A stretch of 34,552 bases of DNA from Terriglobales bacterium (GTDB taxonomy: Bacteria; Acidobacteriota; Terriglobia; Terriglobales; Acidobacteriaceae): contig JAICYU010000014.1 of NCBI GenBank assembly GCA_025934025.1, forward strand, positions 1-34,552. Reading direction: 5' to 3'. Of the stretch, positions 2 through 24,219 are shown piece by piece. Every line of letters begins with the position of its first letter. Positions within the stretch are counted from its first letter, which is position 1. A model generated the notes under the pieces. The model saw nothing but the letters and a program-made list of their open reading frames with translations, ran no database searches and was not told the DNA's origin. The translations under genes and the position numbers were made by a program.

Positions 2-1969
2 GATGAGCACCCTGACCGGCTGAAAGCGCCACTTATACGTAAAGAAGGCGCCGGCTTTGTTCCTGCATCGTGGAACGATGCTATGGACAAAGTCGCCTCC
101 GAGATCACCCGCATCCAGAACACCTACGGCAATGACGCTTTTGCTCTGCTCGGCGGTGCGTCGCTCACCAACGAAAAAGCATATCTCATGGGCAAGTTTG
201 CCCGCGTCGCGGTGAAGACTGCGAACATTGATTACAACGGCCGCCTCTGCATGGTTTCCGCCGGCGCGGCTTCGAAAAAGATCTTTGGACTGGATCGCTC
301 CGCCAATCCCTGGAACGACATTCCGCTGGCCAAAGCCATCCTTGTTGCCGGATCGAACGTCGCCGAGTGCTCGCCCATCACAACGCAGTACCTGTGGCAG
401 GCGCGGGAGAACGGCGGCAAACTCATCGTGCTCGATCCTCGCATGACTCCCATCGCGCGCAACGCCGATCTCTACATTCCGGTGCGCTCCGGCGGCGACA
501 TCGGCGTCTTTAACGGCATGTTGCGCATCATGATTGAGCGCGGATGGATTGATCGTGAGTTCATCGCCCGGCACACCACCGGATGGGAAGAAGTAGAAAA
601 GGTCGTCGCCAAGTACACGCCGGAATACGCGGCTAAAATCGCCGGTGTTCCCGCCAGCATGATCGTTCGCGCGGCGGAGATCTGGGGACCTGCTTCCACC
701 AGCTTTCTTCTCCACGCGCGCGGAATCGAGCACCACTCCAAAGGCGTGGAAAACTGCATGGCTGCTATCAACCTGGTAGTTGCCAGCGGACGCATTGGGC
801 GCGAAGGCTGCGGGTACGCCATGATTACGGGCCAGGGCAATGGACAGGGAGGCCGCGAACAAGGGCAAAAAGCCGAGCAGCTTCCCGGTTCGCGCGACAT
901 CGAGAACCCGGAGCACCGCCGCTACATCGCCGAGGTTTGGGGCGTGCCGGAAGAAAGCATTCCGCACAAAGGGCTCACCATGGTTCCCATCTTTGAAGCC
1001 ATTCACGCCGGCAAGATCAAGGGACTGCTGGGTATCTCCTGCAATCCCATGGTCTCGCTGCCCAACAACGGTTACATCCGGGAAGCCTATGAGAAGCTGG
1101 AGTTCAGCTGCCAAATTGACTTCTTCATGTCGGAAACCGCCCAGTATTGCGACGTGGTGCTCGCCGGTTCGCTGATGGAAGAAGATGAAGGCACCACGAC
1201 CAACGTGGAAGGCCGCGTGATTCATCACAAGAAAGCCGTGGATCCTCCAGCCGATGCGCGGGTGGACTGGCAGATCATCTGCGATCTTGCCGCCCGCCTG
1301 GGCGTGGCAGAGAAGTTTGCTTTTCGCTCCGCTAAGGAGATTTTTGACGAGCTTCGCCTGGCTTCAAGAGGCGGATTGTCAGACTATTACGGCATCACGT
1401 GGGAGCGCATTGACCGCGAGCACGGAGTCTTCTGGCCGTGCCCTTCCGCCGAACATCCCGGCACTCCGCGTTTGTATGAGAATGCGAAGTTCGCGCATCC
1501 CGATGGCAAAGCGCATTTTCAGCCTGTGGAATGGCGACCGGCGGCAGAGGAGCCAGACAGCCACTATCCCATTATCCTCACCACCGGCCGCGTCGTCTCG
1601 CAATATCTTTCTGGAACTCAAACCCGCCGCATTGGCGGGCTGGTGGACCAGTATCCGCAACCGCTATGCGAGATTCATCCCATTCTCGCGGCCCAACTCG
1701 AAATCGCGGAAGGCGACTTCGTGAAAGTGGAAAGCCGCCGCGGGGCCGTCACGGTGCGCGCCAGCGTGGTCAAGACCATCCGCCCTGATACGGTTTTCGT
1801 TCCTTATCACTGGCCGCTCGATCGGGCTGCCAATAACATGACGGTCCGCGCCATTGATCCCGTTTCCAATATTCCTGAGTTTAAGATTTGCGCTGTACGC
1901 CTGCGCAAGGTCCCGCAGCCGCACGATGCCATTGCCGAACTTGCCGTCCAGGCCGGAGGAGTACGATGA
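2..1969 (+). CDS. Molybdopterin oxidoreductase, assimilatory nitrate reductase-like catalytic subunit (5' partial)
   Basis: Bis-MGD molybdenum enzyme of the DMSO reductase superfamily, closest by eye to the Nas/Nar-B/Nap nitrate reductases. The frame is open from base 2, where it reads [16 protein letters not shown], a typical segment just after the N-terminal [4Fe-4S] motif. The gene therefore starts upstream of the window, and both the cluster cysteines and any Tat signal are out of view. The visible part is 655 residues. The segment [14 protein letters not shown] holds the probable Mo-ligand cysteine (about visible residue 83), followed by [14 protein letters not shown] and [12 protein letters not shown] (MGD binding). 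The C-terminal molybdopterin-dinucleotide-binding domain starts near [18 protein letters not shown]. The stop overlaps the ferredoxin-subunit start by ATGA. Nitrate as substrate is inferred from the motif and from the NO-related genes nearby; another oxyanion or a formate dehydrogenase role is not excluded. Confidence 0.85.
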
Positions 1970-2586
1970 GCGCCACCGCTGAAATGGAGTTCTTTATTGA
2001 CTATTCGCGGTGCATCGGCTGCCGCGCCTGCGTGCAGGCCTGCGAAGAGTGTGATACTCATCGCGGGGTCTCCCTGATCCACCTGGAGACCATCATGCGC
2101 GAAGACAGCGTGCAAACTGCGCCGCAAGTCTGCATGCACTGCGAAGATCCTATCTGCGCGCAGGTCTGCCCCGCGGATGCCATCAAGAAAACAGCCGATG
2201 GAGTTGTCCAGAGCTCGCTGAAGCCGCGCTGTATTGGCTGCTCTAACTGCGTTCTGGCCTGCCCCTTCGGCGTTCCAAAATATCGCGCCGAAATCAACCA
2301 GATGATGAAGTGCGACATGTGCTATGACCGCACCAGCATCGGCAAACGCCCCATGTGCGCCACCGTCTGCCCCTCTGGTGCGCTCACCTTCACTACGCGC
2401 GAGAACATCGAGCGGACGCGTCAAGGCCTGGCCATCCGCGACTGGGAGTTCGGAGGCGAGAAGGTGCGCACTAAAGTCAACGTGCTGGTTCCCCGCCAAG
2501 TGGAACGGATTGATGTAAACGTGGAGCAGATCGGAATCCGCCATACCGAAGAGTACGACGTTGCCCGGCTGCTCGCAGGAGATTAA
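1966..2586 (+). CDS. Four-cluster [4Fe-4S] ferredoxin subunit (NarH/DmsB/NrfC type)
   Basis: Electron-transfer subunit expected to carry electrons to or from the molybdenum subunit. It is 206 residues and has four cysteine groups: C16/C19/C22/C26, C56/C59/C64/C68, C89/C92/C95/C99 and C116/C119/C131/C135, enough for four [4Fe-4S] clusters. An additional Cys29 (CEEC) follows the first group. ATG 1966 is chosen because it follows GGAGG, overlaps the upstream stop and begins right before the first conserved block. The frame runs further upstream but encodes nothing conserved there. No signal peptide is visible, so it is either cytoplasmic or co-exported with the catalytic subunit. It is the second gene of a tightly packed four-gene operon. 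Confidence 0.9.
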
Positions 2587-2588
2587 CG

Positions 2589-3110
2589 ATGCCTGACGAT
2601 CACGCGACACCTTGCCTCAATTGCAAGAAGAGGAACGCGCGCTGGCGCGAAGATTTTCCCGTGGAGTGGGAAAATGACGAGTACATCACCCGCCGCGAGA
2701 TGGTGAAGTTTCTTGCCCTGGGGTCGCTTACCATCGCCGGAGCCAACTTTATTCTGGCCGGCATTCCACACGTTCTCCAGTCGGGGCCGCTGCCCAAAAC
2801 AAAGATCGGCACAGCTTCGTCGGTCGCGGCCGGCAGTTCGCAACTGTTCCGGTATCCAACGAACGACGATCCCTGCATCCTCATCCGCCAGACCAGCGGC
2901 GAACTGGTGGCCTACTCGCAGGTTTGCACGCATCTTTCCTGCGCCGTGATCCACGACCAGAAGGAGAACACGCTCTTCTGCCCTTGCCATCACGGCTACT
3001 TCACTGTGGCTGAAGGACGTCCCTACGCAGGCCCGCCGACGCGCCCGCTGCCACGCATCAGACTGGAACAAGAAGGGGACGAAATCTTTGCTGTTGGAGT
3101 TGAGGTCTGA
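2589..3110 (+). CDS. Membrane-anchored Rieske [2Fe-2S] protein with N-terminal CxxC
   Basis: Rieske iron-sulfur protein of 173 residues. The motifs CTHLSC (C113, H115, C118) and CPCHHG (C131, C133, H134) give the four cluster ligands C113/H115/C131/H134. C118/C133 are placed like the disulfide pair of bc1-type Rieske proteins. Residues 34-60 read TRREMVKFLALG and then a hydrophobic run, which looks like a Tat-type signal anchor with its twin arginine at 35-36. Before it lies an unusual 34-residue polar extension with a CxxC (C9, C12). The gene starts 2 nt after the ferredoxin-subunit stop and its stop overlaps the next start by one base. It probably links quinol or another donor to the molybdenum enzyme; that role is inferred from the operon. 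Arsenite oxidase small subunits and haloarchaeal nitrate-reductase Rieske proteins offer partial parallels. Confidence 0.88.
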   Translation: MPDDHATPCLNCKKRNARWREDFPVEWENDEYITRREMVKFLALGSLTIAGANFILAGIPHVLQSGPLPKTKIGTASSVAAGSSQLFRYPTNDDPCILIRQTSGELVAYSQVCTHLSCAVIHDQKENTLFCPCHHGYFTVAEGRPYAGPPTRPLPRIRLEQEGDEIFAVGVEV

Positions 3111-3340
3111 TGAGCACGCGCCAGTCACAAGGGACCACGCTCTTCACCGCGCTGCTCGCTCTCATCGGGATCAGTGTGGTGGTGCAGCTCTGGCTGCTGG
3201 CCGCCACCGTTGATGCTCTTCTGCGGCATGAAGCCGGAACGCCTCTTTACGCCGCCATAGCCTCGGGAGGTTTGTTCGTCATCAACGGCCTGCTGGTGCT
3301 CTACGTGTTCGGCTTCGATAAGAAGATCAAGCAGCGCTAG
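3110..3340 (+). CDS. Small two-helix membrane protein of the Rieske/Mo operon
   Basis: A 76-residue protein with two clear hydrophobic segments (about residues 10-36 and 46-66) separated by a short polar loop (RHEAGTPLYAA), ending in a basic tail (DKKIKQR). I do not recognise a named family with certainty. Its ATG overlaps the Rieske stop (TGATG), so it is translationally coupled and very probably a membrane component of the same complex, for example an anchor or quinone-site helper. It has no histidine pair arranged for heme b ligation, so it is not an obvious NarI-like cytochrome. Its 3' end overlaps the convergent NnrS gene by 14 bp. Confidence 0.75.
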   Translation: MSTRQSQGTTLFTALLALIGISVVVQLWLLAATVDALLRHEAGTPLYAAIASGGLFVINGLLVLYVFGFDKKIKQR

Positions 3341-4682
3341 GCCGGTTCATCTCATGTGCGGGCGGCTGGCGGAAGGTCAAGAGCAGGTTGGCGGCGAACA
3401 CCGTCACAGCAGCAAGCTCGCAAATCGCCGACACCGGCAGTATGTGCCATGCAGGAGGCCAGTATCCTTCATAAGCCGGCACTTCACTACCCACGCGCAG
3501 GGCGCATCCTGCGGTCAACAACGCTAGCGAGCACAGCATGAGCCGCGGGCTGTAGAGCACGCGCATTCCTGCAAACGCCGGTAGCACTCGTTGTCCAATG
3601 GCAAAGACCATGGTGGCGATGAACCCAACGGTAAGCGCATGGCGGGAAGCGCCCGTCCACCCGTTCATTCGATCAAGATAGGCAGCGCAGATGGCCAGTG
3701 CGCCGGCGATCACCAGCCACGCATAGGCAGTCCTTACAAACCAGGGAAATGAAACGTGGATTCCGGTGGTTTTTGCCGGGCGCTCCGGGCGCGCGAAGAG
3801 ACGAAGCGCCACAGCCGACTGAACCGCCCCGATAGCAAACAGCCACGGAGCCACGTGCGCAAATCCGGCGAGAGCAAAAGCAGATCCGGCAACGACGAAG
3901 CCGATGGAACCGCGAAGGAGAAGGTCCGAGGGCTCTCTCAATCCCAGGAACACGGGCAGCCAGCGCGCGCTGAATCCCCAGACAGTGGGAACGATGAACG
4001 CGTAAGCGAGCAGAGCAAGCAGACGCCACTCCAGCGCTGCGGGAAAGACCGGTTGCGCGCCGTACAAACTCACGTAAACCGCTGCTCCCAGATTGATCAG
4101 CAGACCAACCAAAAACCCGACCGTGCCAGTCATCACCGAGAGCAGCCAAACCGGCAGGCGCTTGTCTTGTTCTTTGCTTGGCGTTGACGCGGGTTGCTTG
4201 CGGCCGCCGGGCCGATGCCGCCGCACCGAGTGAAAGAAGATGACAAATGCAGCGAGCTCCAGCGCGGCCGAGACCGACAAATGCAAACGCCAATGCCATG
4301 GGCATACACCCGCCAACCAGCGCAGAAGGACGCCGCTACTCCACAACGCCCAGGCAGTCCAACCTCGCGCCACCGCAAAGCTGCTGCCCGTCATTTTGGG
4401 AATGGAGTAAAAGCCGATTCCCAGAATGAACGTTCCTATCCAGCCGAAGATCTGGGCATGTCCGTGCGCCTGAATCCATGCCGGTGAGACCGCCGCTCCT
4501 TTGTGCCCGCTGATCGAGATCAGGTTCCAAACGCCGAGAAAAGTCCCCGGCAGCAGCATGAAAAACAATCCTGAAATCACGAATCCCAGCAGCAGCCGCT
4601 GCGCGCGGCGTTCCCGCGCCTGAAGGAGGGCGGCCGGAGGATGCAGCACCCGCAGTTTCGGCACTGTCTCCACGGTGCTCAT
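3327..4682 (-). CDS. nnrS: NnrS-like multi-pass membrane protein (nitric oxide stress)
   Basis: A 451-residue membrane protein with about 12 hydrophobic segments. It matches the NnrS family, whose members are linked to NO and nitrosative stress and proposed to handle heme/copper or metal-nitrosyl species. The N-terminal block HGHAQIFGWIGTFILGIGF, followed by PKMTGSS, is the family's hallmark histidine motif. A later conserved-looking block is GFIATMVFAIGQRVLPAFAG. The N-terminal ~30 residues are cytoplasmic-like and arginine-rich. The start ATG overlaps the RIC stop (ATGA), so it is the second gene of a RIC-NnrS operon read from the promoter near 5475. It is convergent with the Rieske/Mo operon. 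The polar loop between helices 4 and 5 (near 4190) is longer than usual. Family assignment is by eye. Confidence 0.8.
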   Translation of the reverse strand: MSTVETVPKLRVLHPPAALLQARERRAQRLLLGFVISGLFFMLLPGTFLGVWNLISISGHKGAAVSPAWIQAHGHAQIFGWIGTFILGIGFYSIPKMTGSSFAVARGWTAWALWSSGVLLRWLAGVCPWHWRLHLSVSAALELAAFVIFFHSVRRHRPGGRKQPASTPSKEQDKRLPVWLLSVMTGTVGFLVGLLINLGAAVYVSLYGAQPVFPAALEWRLLALLAYAFIVPTVWGFSARWLPVFLGLREPSDLLLRGSIGFVVAGSAFALAGFAHVAPWLFAIGAVQSAVALRLFARPERPAKTTGIHVSFPWFVRTAYAWLVIAGALAICAAYLDRMNGWTGASRHALTVGFIATMVFAIGQRVLPAFAGMRVLYSPRLMLCSLALLTAGCALRVGSEVPAYEGYWPPAWHILPVSAICELAAVTVFAANLLLTFRQPPAHEMNRPSAA

Positions 4683-5437
4683 CCTCTGGCGCCGGCAGCG
4701 GCTGCTTCCCTGCTCTGCTCCTCCATCCGGACGGCGCGCGGGAAAAGAATATTGTTTTCCAGATGAACGTGCTGGTGCATGTCGGCTTCAAATTCCGCCA
4801 ATGCGGCATACAGCGTGCGATAGCTGAAGCAGGCGTTTTCCGGCGGTGCATATCCGGCCGAGGCTTCGCGCATCCTCTTAAGCGCATCGCCTGAAGACTC
4901 ATGCTCCAATTCCATCATGTGTATGGGCTTGGCAATGGCGCCGAACATCGGCCGCCTTGGCGCTTTGCCCTGCTGCACGGCCTGTTCCATCTCCACGACA
5001 TATGGAAACAAGACGTTCTCTTCTTTCATCATGTGGGAGGTCATCTCCGCCGCCAACTCCTGGAAGTTCTGCTGGATCACCATCAGCTCCGGATGGCCCG
5101 TTCCGTGAACCGCAACCACCTTCTTCAGCAACTGCCGCAGTCGCGGGATTTCCTGCTTCACATACCCGTGGTGGCGCGTGATGATGTGGTCAATCAGCGC
5201 CGTAAGACCTGAGGCTTCCACTTGCGGAGCGCCTGAGGACCGCTGTTTCTGGTCGGATTCTCCTTCTTCCAATCGCTGCAAAACAGTGGCAATTGGCAGA
5301 CCGGCGCGCGCGCAGGCGTCGCTGAGAGGACGGTTACCGCCGCAGCAGTAGTCAATCCCGAGCTGCTCAAACAGGCGGGTTGCGTTAGGAATGGTTGTCG
5401 CGAACTCTCGTACAGTAGCTGTGGGTCCCAGATTCAT
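4679..5437 (-). CDS. ric: Iron-sulfur cluster repair di-iron protein (RIC/ScdA/YtfE family)
   Basis: A cytoplasmic di-iron protein that restores Fe-S clusters damaged by NO or oxidants. It is 252 residues. The N-terminal DUF542 domain carries the signature YCCGG (C31, C32). The C-terminal hemerythrin-like four-helix domain contains the expected metal-binding histidines and glutamates in HIITRHHGY, SHMMKEENVLFP, HMMELEHES and DMHQHVHLENNILFP. The start at 5437 has a GGAGAAGAG Shine-Dalgarno and gives the normal N-terminus (TVREFA..IPNATRLFEQLGIDYCCGG). It is first in a two-gene operon with NnrS. An FNR/DNR-like palindrome at 5511-5522 fits control by the neighbouring Crp/Fnr regulator. Confidence 0.93.
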   Translation of the reverse strand: MNLGPTATVREFATTIPNATRLFEQLGIDYCCGGNRPLSDACARAGLPIATVLQRLEEGESDQKQRSSGAPQVEASGLTALIDHIITRHHGYVKQEIPRLRQLLKKVVAVHGTGHPELMVIQQNFQELAAEMTSHMMKEENVLFPYVVEMEQAVQQGKAPRRPMFGAIAKPIHMMELEHESSGDALKRMREASAGYAPPENACFSYRTLYAALAEFEADMHQHVHLENNILFPRAVRMEEQSREAAAAGARG

Positions 5438-5531: not shown

Positions 5532-6227
5532 TTATTCTGTTTCTTCCAGTTCTGCCTTAAGACGGTTCAGGTCAAGGATCAGCACGGTCTTGCCTTCCAT
5601 GCGGATCAGGTCCTCGGCCTGCAGACGGCTGAGATTGCGCGACACCAGCTCACGCACGGTCCCGATCTGAGAAGCAAGTTCCTGGTTGCTGGGCGGGAGT
5701 TGCACCTCCACTCCGTTACCGGTCTTCTTTCCGTGTTCGGCAAAGCGCAGCAGCGTGGAAATCAGCCGGCCACGAACCGTGGTAAATGACAGCTCTTCAA
5801 TGATCCCTACCAGACGCCGCAAGCGCGCACCCACAATCTTGAGGACTTTGAGCGGCACCTGAGGATGGATGAGGCAGAGCGAGTAAAAATCCTGCTTGCT
5901 GATAAACAGGATTCCTGTGTTCTCCATCGCAGAAGTGGAAGCAGGATAGTTTCCGCCGTCAAAGACGGGGAGTTCGGCGACCGAACTGCCCGGCCCTTCA
6001 ATCGCAAGCACCTGCTCGCGACCGCTGGCAGAGCTCTTGAAGATGCGTATCCGGCCGCTCTCGATCACAAATAACCCGGCACAGGGATCGCCTTCACTGA
6101 AAATAATGTCGCCCTGAGCGTAGGTCCGGCGCACCGCCCTTTCACTCAAGAACTGAAGCTCTGTCGGGGAAAGGTCGGCAAGAATCGGTACGCGGCGGAG
6201 CGTCTCCAGTGGTTTTTCATGGGCCAT
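5532..6227 (-). CDS. Crp/Fnr-family transcriptional regulator (DNR-like)
   Basis: A 231-residue regulator. It has an N-terminal cyclic-nucleotide-binding-type sensor (residues about 10-125, with QGDIIFSEGDPCAGLFVIESG), a dimerisation helix (about 126-155) and a C-terminal winged helix (about 150-228). The recognition helix reads TVRELVSRNLSRLQ with E193, S196 and R197 in the E-x-x-S-R pattern that FNR and DNR use to read TGA half-sites. The N-terminal FNR cysteine cluster is absent; only C49 and C118 are present, so it is not an oxygen-sensing [4Fe-4S] FNR. A heme/NO-sensing DNR-like role is plausible because RIC and NnrS lie directly downstream, but the ligand is inferred. The start is preceded by TACAAT 8 nt upstream, without a Shine-Dalgarno. 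Confidence 0.88.
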   Translation of the reverse strand: MAHEKPLETLRRVPILADLSPTELQFLSERAVRRTYAQGDIIFSEGDPCAGLFVIESGRIRIFKSSASGREQVLAIEGPGSSVAELPVFDGGNYPASTSAMENTGILFISKQDFYSLCLIHPQVPLKVLKIVGARLRRLVGIIEELSFTTVRGRLISTLLRFAEHGKKTGNGVEVQLPPSNQELASQIGTVRELVSRNLSRLQAEDLIRMEGKTVLILDLNRLKAELEETE

Positions 6228-17798: not shown

Positions 17799-18962
17799 AT
17801 GCGTTTGATCATTGCCAACCTATCAGTACTTTCTTTGCTGATTCTCGTGGGCTGCGGCCAGAAGCAGCAAACCACCGTCTCCGCCAACGAAGGCCCTCCG
17901 GTAACTATCGCCGTCGCAGCCCAGCAGGCCGTCCCGATTGAGATTGACGCCATCGGAAACGCACAGCCCTATCGCGCCGTCCAGGTGAAATCCATGGTGG
18001 ACGGCCAGATTGACCGCGTGGAACTCCAGCAAGGGCAGGACGTCCGCGCCGGCCAGGTTCTTTTTGTGTTGGACAAGCGGCCGTTCCAAGCTGCTCTGGA
18101 CCAGGCGCTGGGCAAGCTGGCGCAAGATGAAGCGACTGCGGCCAACAACAAGGCATTGGCTGCTCGCGCCAATTCCCTGCTCAAGCAAGGCGTTCTCGCG
18201 CTTCAGGACGTCCAGACCAGCGATGCTCAAGCGCAGGCCAGCGCCGCCGCCGTACAGGCAGACAAAGCAGCCGTCGAAACCGCGCGAGTTAACCTTGGAT
18301 ACACCGATATCAAAGCGCCCATCAACGCGCGCGCCGGCGCGATCCTGGTGAATCTGGGAAACCTGGTGAAAGCCAACGATACCAATCCGCTAACTACGCT
18401 CAACGAAATCGAGCCCATTTACGTCTCCTTCAATATTCCCGAGTCTGATCTGACGACGCTACGTGCTAAAGGCGACACTCATTTCAAGGTCAGCGCTTTT
18501 CCTCCTAACGCGCCCAAGCCGGAAATTGGAACCCTTACTTTCATTGACAACGCCGTGGACGCAACCACCGGCAGCATCAAGCTGATGGCCACATTTCCCA
18601 ACCACAAACGCATGCTCTGGCCGGGCGAATACTTGAACGTGCGCCTTGTGCTTGGTACCGACCCTCACGCAGTTGTTGTTCCTTCAACCGCCGTGCAGAC
18701 CGGACAGCAAGGCAAATATGTTTATGTTGTCCAGCCGGATGGGACCGCGGTGATCAAGCCGGTGAACTCGCCCCGCAACTACGGCCAGCTCGCCGTGATT
18801 CAGAGCGGCATCGCTGCCGGTGATCGCGTGATCGTGGATGGCCAGGTTCGCGTGGTCCCCAACAACAAAGTGAGCATTACGCGCACCATTCCTGCTTCCC
18901 AGGCATCTGGAAATAGTGCGCAGGCAAAGCAATCCACCGAAGCTGCTGGAGAGCCGCAATGA
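17799..18962 (+). CDS. RND efflux periplasmic adaptor lipoprotein (MdtA/AcrA-like)
   Basis: Membrane-fusion protein of 387 residues that links an inner-membrane RND pump to an outer-membrane channel. It has a lipoprotein signal with lipobox LVGC (C19). The biotinyl-lipoyl-like domain shows VKSMVDGQIDRVELQQGQDVRAGQVLFVLDKRPFQ. A helical hairpin follows (about residues 95-165, alanine/glutamine-rich) and the domain is re-entered at ADKAAVETARVNLGYTDIKAPI. The beta-barrel contains EPIYVSFNIPESDL. The C-terminal tail is polar (QASGNSAQAKQSTEAAGE). The stop overlaps the pump start by ATGA, so the two form an operon. No outer-membrane factor is in view. A GGAGA Shine-Dalgarno lies about 12 nt before the ATG. 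Confidence 0.92.
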   Translation: MRLIIANLSVLSLLILVGCGQKQQTTVSANEGPPVTIAVAAQQAVPIEIDAIGNAQPYRAVQVKSMVDGQIDRVELQQGQDVRAGQVLFVLDKRPFQAALDQALGKLAQDEATAANNKALAARANSLLKQGVLALQDVQTSDAQAQASAAAVQADKAAVETARVNLGYTDIKAPINARAGAILVNLGNLVKANDTNPLTTLNEIEPIYVSFNIPESDLTTLRAKGDTHFKVSAFPPNAPKPEIGTLTFIDNAVDATTGSIKLMATFPNHKRMLWPGEYLNVRLVLGTDPHAVVVPSTAVQTGQQGKYVYVVQPDGTAVIKPVNSPRNYGQLAVIQSGIAAGDRVIVDGQVRVVPNNKVSITRTIPASQASGNSAQAKQSTEAAGEPQ

Positions 18963-21900
18963 CCGGACTATTCATCCGCCGCCCCATCATGACCACGTTG
19001 GTCATGGCGGCGATTGTCATCTTCGGCATCTTTGCTTACCGCGTGCTGCCGGTCAGCGATCTGCCCAATGTGGACTTTCCTACTATCCAGGTGAACGCGT
19101 CGCTTCCCGGCGCCAGCCCGGAGACGATGGCATCTTCCGTCGCGACGCCGCTGGAAAAGCAGTTCACCACCATCGCCGGCATCAGCCAGATGACTTCCAC
19201 GAGCCAACTGGGCTCCACCAGCATCACCATCCAGTTCGATCTCTCGCGCAATCTCGATGGCGCTGCCGTTGACGTGCAATCCGCCATCGCCGCGGCCGGC
19301 GGACAGCTTCCGCCCAACCTGCCCACGCCGCCCACGTTCAAGAAGGTAAACCCGGCCGATTCACCCATTCTTTACATCGCGCTCAGCTCCACCACGTTGC
19401 CCATCTACTCTGTGGACGAGGCCGCCGAAACCACCATCGGCCAGCAGCTCTCCATGATTCAGGGCGTGGCGCAGGTGCAGGTGTTCGGCGCTGCCAAGTA
19501 CGCGGTCCGCGTTGATGCCGATCCCAACAAGCTCGCTTCCATGCAGATCGGAATCAACGATCTTGCCAATGCCATCCAGAGCGGCAACACCAATCTTCCC
19601 GTCGGAAGTATTTACGCGCCTGACAAGACCTACACTCTGCAATCGAACGGGCAGCTTACCAACGCTGACCAGTTCCGCCCGCTGATCGTCGCCTATCGCA
19701 ATGGCGCTCCAGTTCATCTCGACCAGGTCGCCAACGTCTCTGACGGCGTGCAGGACGAATACTCCAAAAGCTGGTTCAACAGCCAGCGCGCGATCGTTCT
19801 TGCCGTTCAGAAGCAGCCCGGCACCAACACCATCGAGATCGTGAACGCGATCAACAACTTGATGCCGCGCCTGAAGGGGCAGATCCCAACGGCGATTACG
19901 GTGCAAACGCTCTACGATCGCTCGGTATCGATTCGCCAGAGCGTTGACGACGTAAAGTTCACGCTGCTCTTGACCATCGCGCTCGTCGTGATGGTCATTT
20001 TCCTGTTCCTGCGCAACATTTCCGCCACCATCATTCCCAGCCTTGCGCTGCCCATGTCCATCATCGGGACGTTCATGGTGATGTATGTGCTCGGCTACAC
20101 GGTGGACAATCTCTCGCTCATGTCGCTCACGTTGTCCGTGGGCTTTGTTGTCGACGATGCCATCGTGATGCTGGAGAACATCGTCCGTCACATGGAAATG
20201 GGCAAGAAGCCGATGCAGGCCGCATTCGATGGCGCCAGCGAAATCGGTTTCACCGTTCTTTCCATGACGCTTTCTCTCACGGCCGTGTTCATCCCGATTC
20301 TCTTTATGGGCGGGATCGTCGGCCGGTTGCTGCACGAGTTTGCTGTGGTAATTATGGCGGCCATTCTCGTTTCCGGCTTGGTCTCGCTCACGCTCACGCC
20401 CATGCTGAGCAGCCGCTTTCTGCGTGCGCCTTCTGAAACCAAGCATGGCAGGCTCTACATCGCTTCCGAGCGAGTTTTCGATGGCATGCTCCACTTCTAT
20501 GATTGGACGCTCAAGGGCGCGCTCAAGTGGAAGTTCGTCACCCTGATGCTGAGCTTCGGCGTCATCGCTCTCACCGTTTTTCTGTTCATGATCTCCAAAA
20601 CCGGCTTCATTCCTAACGAAGATGAAGGGCTGGTGTTCGGATTCATTCAGGCGCCCGAGGGCATCGGCTTTGACGAAATGGGCCAGAAGGTCCAGCAGAT
20701 CGCCGCCATCGTCGAAAACGATCCTGCCGTGCTCTACACCATGGCGTCGTACGGCACTCCCGTTAACCAGGGTCGCGTCTTCTTTCACCTGAAGGAAGTG
20801 AAAGACCGCCCAAATCACATCAGCGCCAATGATCTTATCGCCGAGCTGCGGCCCAAGCTGGCTCAGGTGCAGGGCGTGATGGTCTTCATGCAGGTGCCGC
20901 CCACTATCAATGTTGGAGGCCACCTCACCAACGCTCAATATCAGTACACACTCCAGTCTCCCGATACCGCCGAGCTCTACGCCGACGCGCCCAAGATGCA
21001 GGCCGAACTGCGCAAGCTCCCGATGCTGCGCGACGTCAACACCGATTTGCAGGTCCATAATCCGCAACTCACCTTGAAGGTGGATCGCAATAAGGCTTAC
21101 ACGCTCGGCCTGACGGCGCAGCAGGTTTCTGACGCTCTCTACTCCGCTTTCAGCCAGCGCCAGGTCAGCACCATCTACACGCCCAACAACGAGTATTACG
21201 TTATCCTTGAGCTGTCGCCGGAATACCGCAACAACCCGCAAACGCTCTCCACGCTTTACGTGCGGGCTGACGATGGCAAGCTCATCCCGCTCTCGACCGT
21301 CGCCAACGTTGTGCCCAGCATGGGACCGCTCACCGTCAACCACCTCGGCCAACTGCCGGCCGTCACGCTAAGCTTCAACCTGAAAGATGGCGTTGCCCTC
21401 GGCGATGCGACCAAAGCCGTCGAGCAAGTTGCGGAAAAAACCTTGCCCGCAACCGTCCAGCGCAGCTTCCAGGGGACCGCCCAGGCTTTCCAGCAATCGT
21501 TCGCCGGACTCGGCTTCCTTCTGCTTGCCGCCATCGCGGTCATCTACATCGTGCTGGGAATTTTGTACGAGAGCTTCATCCATCCCCTCACCATCCTTTC
21601 CGGCTTGCCTTCGGCAGCGGTGGGCGCGCTGGCCACTCTTCTGGTGTTCCATGAAGAGCTCAACCTGTATTCGTTTGTCGGGATCATCATGCTGATCGGC
21701 ATTGTGAAGAAAAATGCCATCATGATGATTGACTTCGCGCTGGAGAACGAACGCACCCGCGGCGAGAGTCCTGAAGAATCCATCTACCAGGGCGCGTTGG
21801 TGCGCTTCCGCCCCATCATGATGACCACCATGGCGGCCCTCATGGGGACTCTGCCCATTGCAATTGGCTTCGGTGCCGGGGCGGGCGCTCGTCGGGGTCT

Positions 21901-22087
21901 GGGACTGGCCGTGGTCGGCGGCCTCATCTTCTCCCAGATGGTCACGCTCTACATCACGCCCGTCTATTACGTTTACCTCGACCGCGTGCAGAGCCACATC
22001 AACGATTACTGGACGCGCCTCACCGGCCGCGGCGCCAAGGCCAAAACTCTCCACGTGACGGAAAAGGCCGAACTGGTGGAACGATAG
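18959..22087 (+). CDS. RND multidrug efflux pump, HAE1 type (MdtB/MdtC/AcrB-like)
   Basis: Inner-membrane proton/drug antiporter of 1042 residues, the normal length for the HAE1 family. It has 12 helices with two large periplasmic loops. The N-terminal FIRRPIMTTLVMAAIVIFG, the first-loop block SLPGASPETMASSVATPLEK and the TM4 proton-relay pair in VGFVVDDAIVMLENI (Asp-Asp, about 405-406) are all present. In the second half GIVKKNAIMMIDFA and RFRPIMMTTMAALMGTLP match TM10-TM11. It works as a trimer with the adaptor immediately upstream. It most resembles MdtB/MdtC by eye; substrates are not predictable. The gene overlaps the adaptor stop by 4 bp. Confidence 0.95.
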   Translation: MTGLFIRRPIMTTLVMAAIVIFGIFAYRVLPVSDLPNVDFPTIQVNASLPGASPETMASSVATPLEKQFTTIAGISQMTSTSQLGSTSITIQFDLSRNLDGAAVDVQSAIAAAGGQLPPNLPTPPTFKKVNPADSPILYIALSSTTLPIYSVDEAAETTIGQQLSMIQGVAQVQVFGAAKYAVRVDADPNKLASMQIGINDLANAIQSGNTNLPVGSIYAPDKTYTLQSNGQLTNADQFRPLIVAYRNGAPVHLDQVANVSDGVQDEYSKSWFNSQRAIVLAVQKQPGTNTIEIVNAINNLMPRLKGQIPTAITVQTLYDRSVSIRQSVDDVKFTLLLTIALVVMVIFLFLRNISATIIPSLALPMSIIGTFMVMYVLGYTVDNLSLMSLTLSVGFVVDDAIVMLENIVRHMEMGKKPMQAAFDGASEIGFTVLSMTLSLTAVFIPILFMGGIVGRLLHEFAVVIMAAILVSGLVSLTLTPMLSSRFLRAPSETKHGRLYIASERVFDGMLHFYDWTLKGALKWKFVTLMLSFGVIALTVFLFMISKTGFIPNEDEGLVFGFIQAPEGIGFDEMGQKVQQIAAIVENDPAVLYTMASYGTPVNQGRVFFHLKEVKDRPNHISANDLIAELRPKLAQVQGVMVFMQVPPTINVGGHLTNAQYQYTLQSPDTAELYADAPKMQAELRKLPMLRDVNTDLQVHNPQLTLKVDRNKAYTLGLTAQQVSDALYSAFSQRQVSTIYTPNNEYYVILELSPEYRNNPQTLSTLYVRADDGKLIPLSTVANVVPSMGPLTVNHLGQLPAVTLSFNLKDGVALGDATKAVEQVAEKTLPATVQRSFQGTAQAFQQSFAGLGFLLLAAIAVIYIVLGILYESFIHPLTILSGLPSAAVGALATLLVFHEELNLYSFVGIIMLIGIVKKNAIMMIDFALENERTRGESPEESIYQGALVRFRPIMMTTMAALMGTLPIAIGFGAGAGARRGLGLAVVGGLIFSQMVTLYITPVYYVYLDRVQSHINDYWTRLTGRGAKAKTLHVTEKAELVER

Positions 22088-22195: not shown

Positions 22196-22242
22196 CCTCC
22201 CTCGTGATATTCTTTCCGGTCTCTTTTTCCTTACACCTCATC

Positions 22243-24219
22243 ATGACGAAAACCGCTGCCTCATTCCTCCGCGGCATCATCATTGCAGTTCTGCTTGCTT
22301 CGCTCTCTGGGCACGCGCAAAGACCCAAGCCGGCGCCGCCGTCTCCGCAAAAGCCTGCGCCCGCTGAAGCGACTATCCCGCAGCCTCGGCACGAGATGAC
22401 CGCGCCGGATGTTGAAGCTTTTCTTGATGGTTTCCTTCCTATGCAATTGGCGCGAGAGAACATCGCTGGAGCCGTGGTGCTGGTGGTGAAAGACGGTCAC
22501 GTGCTCGCCGCCAAAGGTTATGGCTATAGCGACGTGGAGAAGAAAACTCCGGTCAGCGTGGACGCTACGCTGTTTCGCCCTGGCTCCATCTCCAAGCTCT
22601 TTACCTGGACCGCTGTAATGCAGTTGGTGGAGCAGGGCAAGCTCGATCTGGATAAAGACATCAACGCATATCTCGACTTCAAAATTCCCGCCACGTTTCC
22701 GCAGCCGATCACGTTGCGCCATCTGATGACGCACACACCGGGATTTGAAGAGCAGATCAAAGACCTGATCAACGCGGAAGGCGCGCCCATTGCCACGCTG
22801 CGCGAGCATCTGGTGCGACACATGCCTGCGCGCATCTTTCCGCCGGGCACAACTCCTGCTTACTCCAACTACGGCGCAGCGCTGGCCGGCTACATTGTGC
22901 AGCGAGTCTCAGGCAAGCCGTTCAATGAGTATGTGGAAGAAAACATCTTCAAGCCGCTGGGCATGGAGCACTCGACTTTCAGGCAGCCGCTGCCCGCTGA
23001 ACTGAAGCCGCTGATGTCCAACGGCTACGATCTCGGCAGCGGCAAGCCGAAGCCGTTCGAGATCATTGAAGAAGCTCCGGCGGGCGCTCTTTCCGCTACG
23101 GCTGACGATCTCGCGCACTTCATGATCGCGCATCTTCAGGACGGAACCTACCAGAACGTTCAGATTCTCCGCCCGGAAACCGCGCGCCTGATGCACTCGC
23201 GGCAGTTCGGGCTGGTCCCCGCGTTGGATGGCATGTGCCTGGGCTTCTATGAAGAGTCGCGCAACGGGCATCGCATCATCGGGCATGGCGGAGATACCAT
23301 CTACTTTCACAGCGATCTCCATCTGGTGCCGGACTCGAACTTGGGATTCTTCGTCTCCTACAACAGCGCCGGCAAAGGCGACATCAGCCCTCGCACCGCT
23401 CTCTGGAACCACTTTCTGGACCGCTACTTTCCTTATGAGCCGCCCGCCGCGCAAGCGCCCGCCACCGCCGCGCAGGACGCAAGCAGCGTCGCCGGGCATT
23501 ACATCTCCAGCCGCCGCTCAGAAACCAACCTGCTAAGAGTTGCCAACATGCTTGACCAGGTGGTGGTGACGCAGCAGTCGGAAGGCAAAATCAAAGTGGA
23601 GCCGCTCAAGGACTTCAACGGCGAGCTGAAAAACTGGCAGGAGATTGGTCCTCTTCTTTATCGCGCCGTAAACGGGCAGGACTTGCTGGCCTTCCGCCGC
23701 GACGATCACGGCCGGCTGCAGCTTGTTCCCAGCTTCCCGGCTGTGGTGTACCAGCGCGCCACTCTGGCCGACAACGGCCTGTTCAACCAAACCATTATCG
23801 TCTGCTCGCTGGCCATTATGGGGCTCACGCTGGTTCTCTGGCCGGTGGGCGCGTTCGTGCGAAGACACTATCATCATCGGCTGGAAATTGAGCCGGGAAC
23901 GCAGCAGGGGCGGCTGTGGATTCGCCTGGTCTGCGCGCTGGACCTTATCTTTGTGGCCGCGCTGGCGCTCGTGCTCTCGTCGGACAGCCCGGGGGTGCTG
24001 AGCGAGAAGACGGACCTGCGCATCCATATGATTCAGGTGGTCGGCGCGCTCGGCGGACTGGGGACAATACTGGTGATCATCGCCTGCCTGCGCTCCTGGC
24101 GCGACCGCAATGCCTGGTGGTTCGCCAAAATCTGGAACTTCGTGGTGGTGCTGGCCTGCCTCGGCTTCCTGTGGTTCACGCTTTACTGGAACGTGCTGAA
24201 CTTCAATTTGAATTACTGA
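22243..24219 (+). CDS. Serine beta-lactamase-like hydrolase with C-terminal membrane helices
   Basis: A 658-residue protein of the class C beta-lactamase / D-Ala-D-Ala peptidase / esterase fold. A signal peptide (FLRGIIIAVLLASLSGHA) and a proline-rich linker (about 28-50) precede the catalytic domain. The active-site motifs are S115-I-S-K118 in FRPGSISKLFTW, Y-S-N in PAYSNYGAALAG and HGG in IIGHGGDTIYFHSD. After about residue 400 comes a separate domain (GHYISSRRSETN), then four or so hydrophobic helices from about residue 525 to the end. The catalytic domain is therefore periplasmic and membrane-tethered. The start at 22243 is preferred over an upstream GTG (22204) because it begins at the signal peptide. 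Substrate unknown. Confidence 0.88.
   Translation: MTKTAASFLRGIIIAVLLASLSGHAQRPKPAPPSPQKPAPAEATIPQPRHEMTAPDVEAFLDGFLPMQLARENIAGAVVLVVKDGHVLAAKGYGYSDVEKKTPVSVDATLFRPGSISKLFTWTAVMQLVEQGKLDLDKDINAYLDFKIPATFPQPITLRHLMTHTPGFEEQIKDLINAEGAPIATLREHLVRHMPARIFPPGTTPAYSNYGAALAGYIVQRVSGKPFNEYVEENIFKPLGMEHSTFRQPLPAELKPLMSNGYDLGSGKPKPFEIIEEAPAGALSATADDLAHFMIAHLQDGTYQNVQILRPETARLMHSRQFGLVPALDGMCLGFYEESRNGHRIIGHGGDTIYFHSDLHLVPDSNLGFFVSYNSAGKGDISPRTALWNHFLDRYFPYEPPAAQAPATAAQDASSVAGHYISSRRSETNLLRVANMLDQVVVTQQSEGKIKVEPLKDFNGELKNWQEIGPLLYRAVNGQDLLAFRRDDHGRLQLVPSFPAVVYQRATLADNGLFNQTIIVCSLAIMGLTLVLWPVGAFVRRHYHHRLEIEPGTQQGRLWIRLVCALDLIFVAALALVLSSDSPGVLSEKTDLRIHMIQVVGALGGLGTILVIIACLRSWRDRNAWWFAKIWNFVVVLACLGFLWFTLYWNVLNFNLNY

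Follow-up and report, generated by a model that had tools for sequence, protein, structure and literature searches.

An acidobacterial operon with Rieske and DUF6755 genes as the probable larger part of a membrane-bound nitrate reductase with a NarI-like partner

What does a molybdenum (Mo) enzyme of the nitrate reductase kind do in one operon with a four-cluster ferredoxin, a Rieske protein, and a two-helix membrane protein, and which subunit would supply its electrons? The question is raised by the start of contig C136 of a Terriglobales genome (Acidobacteriota; 3.66-Mb assembly in 362 contigs, 97% complete by the figure of the tool used). The window, that is, the whole stretch of DNA analyzed here, comprises the first 34,552 bases of this contig and opens with four plus-strand genes in one run:

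2–1969, plus strand: Mo-bis(molybdopterin guanine dinucleotide) catalytic subunit, NasC-like, C-terminal 655 amino acids (PF00384, PF01568)
1966–2586, plus strand: ferredoxin subunit with four 4Fe-4S Cys sets, NarH/FdnH/NrfC-like (Fer4_11 and other Pfam models)
2589–3110, plus strand: Rieske [2Fe-2S] protein with a twin-Arg N-terminal anchor helix (PF00355)
3110–3340, plus strand: two-helix membrane protein DUF6755 (PF20540, 37.4 bits against a cut-off of 27)

Our answer is that the products of this operon probably make up the greater part of a membrane-bound menaquinol:nitrate oxidoreductase with a cytoplasmic active site, to which a NarI-like cytochrome b, encoded directly upstream in relatives, would also belong. 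A sequence-only reading of the window had taken the genes for a respiratory-type module, which we still consider the best reading, but had supposed that the Rieske and small membrane proteins take the place of a NarI/NapC-type quinol oxidase. The relatives of the operon contradict that supposition.

The four genes form a genuine operon. The ferredoxin ATG at 1966 creates a 4-nucleotide (nt) ATGA overlap with the Mo gene, and the ferredoxin stop ends at 2586; a gap of 2 nt follows before the Rieske gene, which in turn overlaps the DUF6755 gene by 1 nt. Genes that overlap or nearly touch, as the sequence-only reading described them, are thus what the window holds, and because the same block is found again in relatives, the arrangement goes beyond chance. 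The coordinates 2–3340 are also correct, yet they give a unit truncated at the 5′ side: window base 1 is base 1 of the contig, so the Mo gene lacks its own 5′ end. The nearest relative is a Candidatus Angelobacter metagenome-assembled genome (Acidobacteriota; locus L006) whose Mo subunit is 84% identical. Its full-length copy begins with ~85 amino acids that hold a 4Fe-4S motif, the counterpart of which lies beyond the contig edge here. Promoter and terminator scans gave signal no higher than shuffles.

How far the block is conserved was judged from 75 loci, found by scanning one genome per species with Mo-protein peptide patterns; the figures are conditional on that choice. Sixty-nine loci were counted: the window and L077–L080 are out, as are L066, L073, L075, and L076 (no recognizable Mo motif), and two Deinococcus plasmids (L081, L082) are in. 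In the 62 that extend >2 kb downstream, a Rieske gene is in place in 59, and ferredoxin and Rieske genes together in 58. The four misses are L022, where the ferredoxin open frame starts late and BLAST recovers the protein; L030, where both genes are present but upstream; L067; and L069. A small hydrophobic protein follows the Rieske protein in 56/60 loci, the four without it all being Verrucomicrobiota (L032, L033, L044, L048). The gene order on which the sequence-only reading depended is therefore conserved. It spans at least eight phyla, the 60 Rieske-bearing loci dividing into Acidobacteriota (29), Chloroflexota (6), Myxococcota (5), Bacillota (5), Verrucomicrobiota (4), Bdellovibrionota (4), Actinomycetota (2), Planctomycetota (2), and three with no phylum read, two of them the Deinococcus plasmids. 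On both plasmids, a NarK-type gene comes directly after the block.

The decisive observation concerns the gene directly before the Mo gene, which in relatives encodes a membrane protein of ~360 amino acids. Judged by a strict motif, a cytochrome b adjoins the Mo gene upstream in 56 of the 59 usable loci. Among the exceptions, L048 has a variant of the motif but still falls within the family alignment, and L032 has a 304-amino-acid cluster member; L054 is the third. Because relatives carry this NarI-like protein in that position, the Rieske and DUF6755 proteins are best understood as additions to a quinol oxidase subunit and not as its substitutes. A survey of 396 sampled genomes of the window's phylum gives the same picture from the other end of the block. 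The cytochrome b profile matched in 59 genomes (57 of the 338 of good quality), and DUF6755 exceeded its cut-off in 38, compared with 0 of 14 control genomes. Thirty-six of these 38 also have the cytochrome b, 35 of them on the same contig and strand; the other two are this genome and G384. With a looser DUF6755 limit (E ≤ 0.01), cytochrome b is present in 53/60 and linked in 52, at a spacing of 3.3–4.0 kb that leaves room for Mo, ferredoxin, and Rieske genes. Six genomes of the sample have the cytochrome b and no DUF6755 match. Thus, DUF6755 goes with the block in this phylum. In G384, an 11-kb contig (C10, L148) carries DUF6755, Rieske, and ferredoxin genes, but its NarK is a short stub that continues directly into the C-terminal portion of a Mo subunit, and the contig gave no cytochrome b match; this arrangement reflects either an internal deletion or an assembly fault.

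The upstream protein has gone under other names. Both Deinococcus records label it "MFS transporter" (major facilitator superfamily). The L006 copy matched no MFS model at E 0.001, and we reject the label in favor of a NarI-like cytochrome b. The name may derive from fusions with NarK: in L030, L042, L043, and L047, a single open frame of 728–760 amino acids contains a NarK domain and then the cytochrome b. NCBIfam models recognize both halves in three of these frames, and L042 aligns with the cytochrome family over its second half. In the phylum survey, 8 of the 59 cytochrome b matches lie in open frames of ≥755 amino acids and may be further fusions; in G081, the sole one of these examined, a NarK match lies directly before the cytochrome b. 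An assignment of the gene before the Mo gene as a second NarK also proved wrong, single-linkage clustering having merged the two families via the fusions. Unfused or fused, NarK is a frequent companion, with a match in 33/69 loci, 17 of them on the same strand within 2.6 kb upstream.

In fold and in sequence kinship, the upstream protein looks like NarI. His127, His256, His274, Cys299, and Cys302 are present in all 62 family sequences, and 61 retain Cys338 and Cys341; Asp48 is also invariant. An hhalign profile comparison with Escherichia coli NarI (E 8.7e-6, probability 83%) places His256 and His274 on NarI His187 and His205, both heme ligands. The structure model (predicted local distance difference test, pLDDT, 92.5) matches EtfD at Z 11.8 (root-mean-square deviation, rmsd, 4.4; 225 aligned) and NarI (1q16_C) at Z 10.5 (rmsd 4.8; 180 aligned), ahead of all others (≤7.1); a Z of 10–12 lies within the tool's caution range, values below ~13 being weak for helical bundles, which tempers the comparison. 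QmoC and DsrM structures are not among the fold rows listed, and this excludes nothing. At the sequence level, the QmoC model matches four of five unfused copies tested (not L058) and L064, always far below its cut-off, and the TcuB and DsrM models match some copies. In its tail, which has four Cys, the protein is similar to the C-terminal part of formate hydrogenlyase subunit 6 (Z 5.7, rmsd 1.8, 52 aligned; E 0.094).

The heme ligands differ from those of NarI. There, the outer heme is held by His66 and His187 and the inner heme by His56 and His205. In the block cytochrome, His127, His256, and His274 are found in 49/49 rows, and the His187 equivalent is thus never lost. Position 137, ten residues past His127 and the likely place of NarI His66, is Ala, Ser, Gly, or Thr, and no row of the 49 has a His at 128–146. 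Compared with two in NarI, the block cytochrome therefore appears to have one complete His pair, the outer pair being half missing. In all 49 rows, lysine plus arginine are richer on the C-terminal (heme) side, mostly owing to a long loop at 74–120. On this count, His127/His274 and the four-Cys tail would face the inside, the arrangement of NarI, beside the cytoplasmic ferredoxin and Mo subunit.

The catalytic subunit had been assigned to the nitrate reductase (Nas) kind, and both its ligand motif and its position in a tree uphold this. The window motif is NGRLCM, in which the Cys is Cys83 of the fragment, and every block row shown that reaches the Mo-ligand site has Cys-Met there (L066 does not reach it). 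In this alignment, made without L037, L038, L075, and L076, the NapA, NarB, and NasC/NasA references have Cys-Met, and three formate dehydrogenase (Fdh) references have Cys or selenocysteine followed by His. The tree has 48 rows, trimmed to the part aligned with L006; among them are 34 hand-chosen block rows, three Fdh references, and two NapA references, with NarG left out. It unites the block Mo subunits with the nirB-linked NasC of Paenibacillus, Mycobacterium, Calidithermus, and Meiothermus (100/100). The three Fdh references form a separate group (100/100), so the check proposed by the sequence-only reading places the subunit outside them. On the tree position and the Cys-Met motif, we reject a formate dehydrogenase identity. 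The group that holds all block rows is supported at just 88/77, and it includes L067 and the D. grandis NasA (a flagged long branch), neither of which has the block. Untrimmed rows gave similar groups, with the Bacillota rows less resolved. No signal peptide was seen by eye on 18 Mo N termini or on the ferredoxins.

The remaining subunits are consistent with a membrane complex. Of the 17 Cys in the window ferredoxin, 16 fall into four sets, and the best PDB sequence match of this protein is FdnH (1kqf_B). At one locus, L019 (9965–11205), a tandem pair of different four-cluster ferredoxin genes follows the Mo gene. The window Rieske protein has RR at residues 35–36 and a helix at 29–62. In the family, RR stands ahead of a hydrophobic stretch in 61/61 sequences, and the C-T/S-H...CPCHxGxF pattern is kept in 60/61. 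The twin Arg and the helix suggest a membrane anchor with the cluster on the outer side. The structure model (pLDDT 89.2) finds its best fold match in the arsenite oxidase subunit AioB (Z 18.2, rmsd 1.2, 106 aligned, 35% identical), with bc1/b6f proteins behind; despite this closeness, the protein scores 55.3 with the arsenite oxidase small subunit model TIGR02694, whose cut-off is 95.65. A lone "aioB" of Bacillus sp. S3 (FAY30_05805), reported as an arsenite/antimonite oxidase subunit in the available text of PMC7193398, might be this AioB-like Rieske protein.

From these parts, a path for electrons can be proposed; the joining of the products into one complex, nitrate as substrate, quinol as donor, heme binding, sidedness, and the role of the Rieske protein are deduced from the observed genes, gene order, conservation, motifs, and predicted folds. 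The NarI-like cytochrome b, outside the window, would oxidize quinol toward the outer side. Electrons would pass from its inner-side heme b to the four-cluster ferredoxin and on to the 4Fe-4S cluster and Mo centre of the NasC-type subunit in the cytoplasm, where nitrate brought in by a NarK-type carrier would be reduced. The Rieske protein, held on the outer side by its twin-Arg anchor, and DUF6755 would be extra membrane subunits at the quinol end. What they do there is the subject of our boldest and most speculative proposal. The missing His66 equivalent, next to an invariant His187 equivalent, led us to the idea of a Nar/bc1 hybrid, in which the cytochrome b keeps only its inner heme and the AioB-like Rieske centre, held by DUF6755, replaces the outer heme at a quinol site with His256 and Asp48; menaquinol would then be oxidized with the Rieske centre plus a single heme b. 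This proposal, built on an absence plus co-conservation, has perhaps a modest chance of being right.

Several observations weigh against the enzyme as we propose it, in addition to the caution on fold scores given above. Neither the N terminus of the Mo subunit nor the cytochrome b was found in searches of this genome's assembly. Because it was not found, we place the cytochrome b gene by inference beyond the contig edge, where it would be expected from the relatives. The link of that protein to NarI also has soft spots: sequence profile searches reach NarI only at E 0.05–0.1, Foldseek with the model gave no match at E < 0.001, the Chloroflexota copy L058 matches no family model, and L006 scores 33.2 bits with QmoC (NF038018), far from the cut-off of 300. 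With the outer His pair half missing, the path from quinol to heme cannot be the known one. For the Mo subunit, the best PDB sequence matches are formate dehydrogenases, and L006 lies closer to its formate dehydrogenase cut-off (658/666.25) than to its NasC cut-off (827/1100). Finally, the neighborhood is uneven across relatives, with a match to the iron-sulfur repair protein RIC in only 11/69 loci and to NnrS in only 7/69, and Verrucomicrobiota blocks stand beside siroheme or NirB-type reductases, suggesting assimilation there.

This last point leads to the alternative that survives best, in which the same membrane enzyme serves nitrate assimilation: quinol, rather than NADH or ferredoxin, would feed the cytoplasmic NasC, and nitrite would go on to ammonium. 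The nirB-linked partners of the Mo subunit in the tree fit such a role, as do the neighbors in four Verrucomicrobiota loci and L031 (siroheme-type reductase matches in L032, L033, where it is annotated, and L048; NirB matches in L044, L048, and L031). In this nearly complete genome, however, there is no match to the siroheme nitrite/sulfite reductase family (NIR_SIR), which was detected in 11/14 controls. There is likewise no match to NrfA, detected in 1/14. What the genome does have is half of a copper nitrite reductase NirK (G000 contig C104:3908–4447, L152; TIGR02376, 212 bits over the first half), which stays below the cut-off because a contig end cuts the gene off. (A NirK-like match at L026 is only a 33% copper-protein match and was not used.) Moreover, the neighbors of the operon in the window point to stress from nitrite or nitric oxide (NO) rather than to assimilation:

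3327–4682, minus strand: NnrS-like membrane protein, convergent with the operon, a context of NO/nitrite handling (PF05940, 45 bits against a cut-off of 28)
4679–5437, minus strand: RIC/ScdA iron-sulfur repair di-iron protein, context (TIGR03652, 249.2 bits against a cut-off of 204.7)
5532–6227, minus strand: Crp/Fnr-family regulator, context (PF00027, PF13545)

Thus, the NirK fragment, the lack of siroheme reductase and NrfA matches, and the adjoining NnrS and RIC genes favor a dissimilatory use in this genome, and we consider assimilation unlikely as the general explanation. Given the few RIC and NnrS matches among relatives and the assimilatory-type neighbors in Verrucomicrobiota, use may differ by lineage.

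A second alternative turns the enzyme around. The twin-Arg signal of AioB carries AioA out of the cytoplasm, and the Rieske protein might export the Mo and ferredoxin subunits in the same way, giving a periplasmic active site. Its domain fold, closest to that of AioB, and the RR conserved in all 61 sequences would suit this. NarK-type carriers linked or fused to the block imply instead that nitrate is imported, and the Lys/Arg-rich heme side of the cytochrome is presumably the inner one; an outward-facing site therefore seems quite improbable.

We give still less credit to a different substrate, such as formate, to be oxidized, or another oxyanion. The formate dehydrogenase structures among the best PDB matches and the near miss of L006 speak for it. 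Among the families shown, L006 exceeds no cut-off: full-length L006 and the truncated window subunit score 827.4 and 779.8 bits with NasC (NF047855, cut-off 1100) and 658 and 584 with formate dehydrogenase alpha (TIGR01591, cut-off 666.25), L006 scores 297.7 with NapA (TIGR01706, cut-off 930.55), and the window subunit scores 57.2 with NarG (TIGR01580, cut-off 1084). The Cys-Met ligand motif, the tree position, and the linkage and fusion to NarK all stand on the side of nitrate, and another substrate is very improbable. Replacement of the NarI-type subunit by the Rieske and two-helix proteins would account for a window and an assembly in which no cytochrome b was found, but with that gene upstream in 56/59 usable relatives and present in 36/38 phylum genomes with DUF6755, it is already contradicted there and deserves next to no credence.

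The surroundings of the block offer a few further observations. In the window, the DUF6755 gene and its convergent neighbor, the NnrS gene, overlap terminally by 14 bases (3327–3340). Farther along, 18959–22087 holds a gene for a resistance-nodulation-division (RND)-type efflux pump and 22204–24219 one for a beta-lactamase-fold protein (both by Pfam); these are ordinary. At L006 (312–1985), an NnrS-like protein with an N-terminal DUF1858/hybrid-cluster-protein-associated disulfide domain lies upstream of Crp, RIC, NarK, and the block. At L033 (4767–6533), a NarK-like gene and the cytochrome b are separated by a protein phosphatase 2C-kinase fusion; it is annotated for that locus only and has cluster mates at L032, L035, L044, L045, and L061. 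An HPP transmembrane protein match lies near the block in 12/69 loci (L008, L009, L013, L017, L020, L021, L027, L034, L041, L054, L058, and L060) and 8 others have a match to a SLAC1-type anion channel; both are possible nitrite or nitrate carriers.

The proposed menaquinol:nitrate oxidoreductase may be relevant to how nitrate reduction is read from genomes. Nitrate respiration is commonly recognized by the marker genes narG and napA, and assimilation by a NasC-type gene. By these markers, the block would pass for an assimilatory nitrate reductase accompanied by an MFS transporter, in a phylum where its cytochrome b occurs in 59/396 sampled genomes. Among eight block isolates (tested for curated cut-offs, without completeness figures), five show no NarG and no NapA above these limits: Edaphobacter aggregans (DSM 19364), Polyangium sp. 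15x6, Halalkalibacter alkalisediminis, Bacillus sp. P14.5, and Ammoniphilus sp. Both occur in Anaeromyxobacter oryzae, NapA in Bacillus MRMR6, and NarG in Bacillus FJAT-47783. The hybrid proposal, if true, would explain nitrate reduction in bacteria without narG and napA. Acidobacteria that reduce nitrate to nitrite and have nasA genes without a recognized dissimilatory reductase are described in the accessible part of Eichorst et al. 2018 (PMC5900883). A 2024 paper, in the text available (PMC10949509), gives Nap and Nar as the canonical types and Nxr as the third. For DUF6755, on which the literature searched held no paper, the block supplies a system to belong to.

It is useful, finally, to contrast the block with known systems. 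With NarGHI it shares a Mo subunit, a four-cluster subunit, a NarI-like cytochrome b, and an adjoining NarK. The Mo ligand of NarG is Asp; the block Mo subunit is of NasC type, has a Cys ligand, and measures ~740 amino acids, whereas E. coli NarG has 1247. The block cytochrome differs in its one complete His pair, and Rieske and DUF6755 are added. NarH has one 3Fe-4S cluster, as the available text of PMC3475470 states, unlike the block ferredoxin with its 16 Cys in four sets. The catalytic subunit itself resembles assimilatory NasC/NarB in tree and motif, but it comes with membrane electron-transfer subunits rather than NirB/NasB, a flavoprotein, or a soluble ferredoxin. AioA binds Mo without a protein ligand (PMC10100899, as far as its text was available), whereas the block combines a Cys ligand with a four-cluster subunit and a cytochrome b. 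The likeness to AioAB lies in an AioB-like Rieske domain paired with a MopB-type enzyme. Haloarchaeal Nar has a large outward-facing NarG and a bc1-like cytochrome b, in contrast to the NasC-type subunit and NarI-like cytochrome b of the block. The two are alike in clustering: haloarchaeal Rieske/cytochrome b and nitrate reductase genes lie together, according to the available part of PMC4683180. The closest precedent is in Bacillus bataviensis, where Heylen and Keltjens 2012 (PMC3475470) linked nasC (BABA_16882 to 16872) to an iron-sulfur protein, called HCP, and another Rieske-type protein and proposed an alternative assimilatory system. The available text describes no cytochrome b or DUF6755 for this cluster, which probably belongs to the block family. 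In the literature searched (most subscription journals were outside reach), the gene set appeared only there, and nothing we found described its cytochrome b, its DUF6755 protein, or how widely it is distributed. Overall, the block is probably a variant of the complex iron-sulfur molybdoenzymes, assembled from known types of parts in a combination unlike the two standard bacterial respiratory nitrate reductases.

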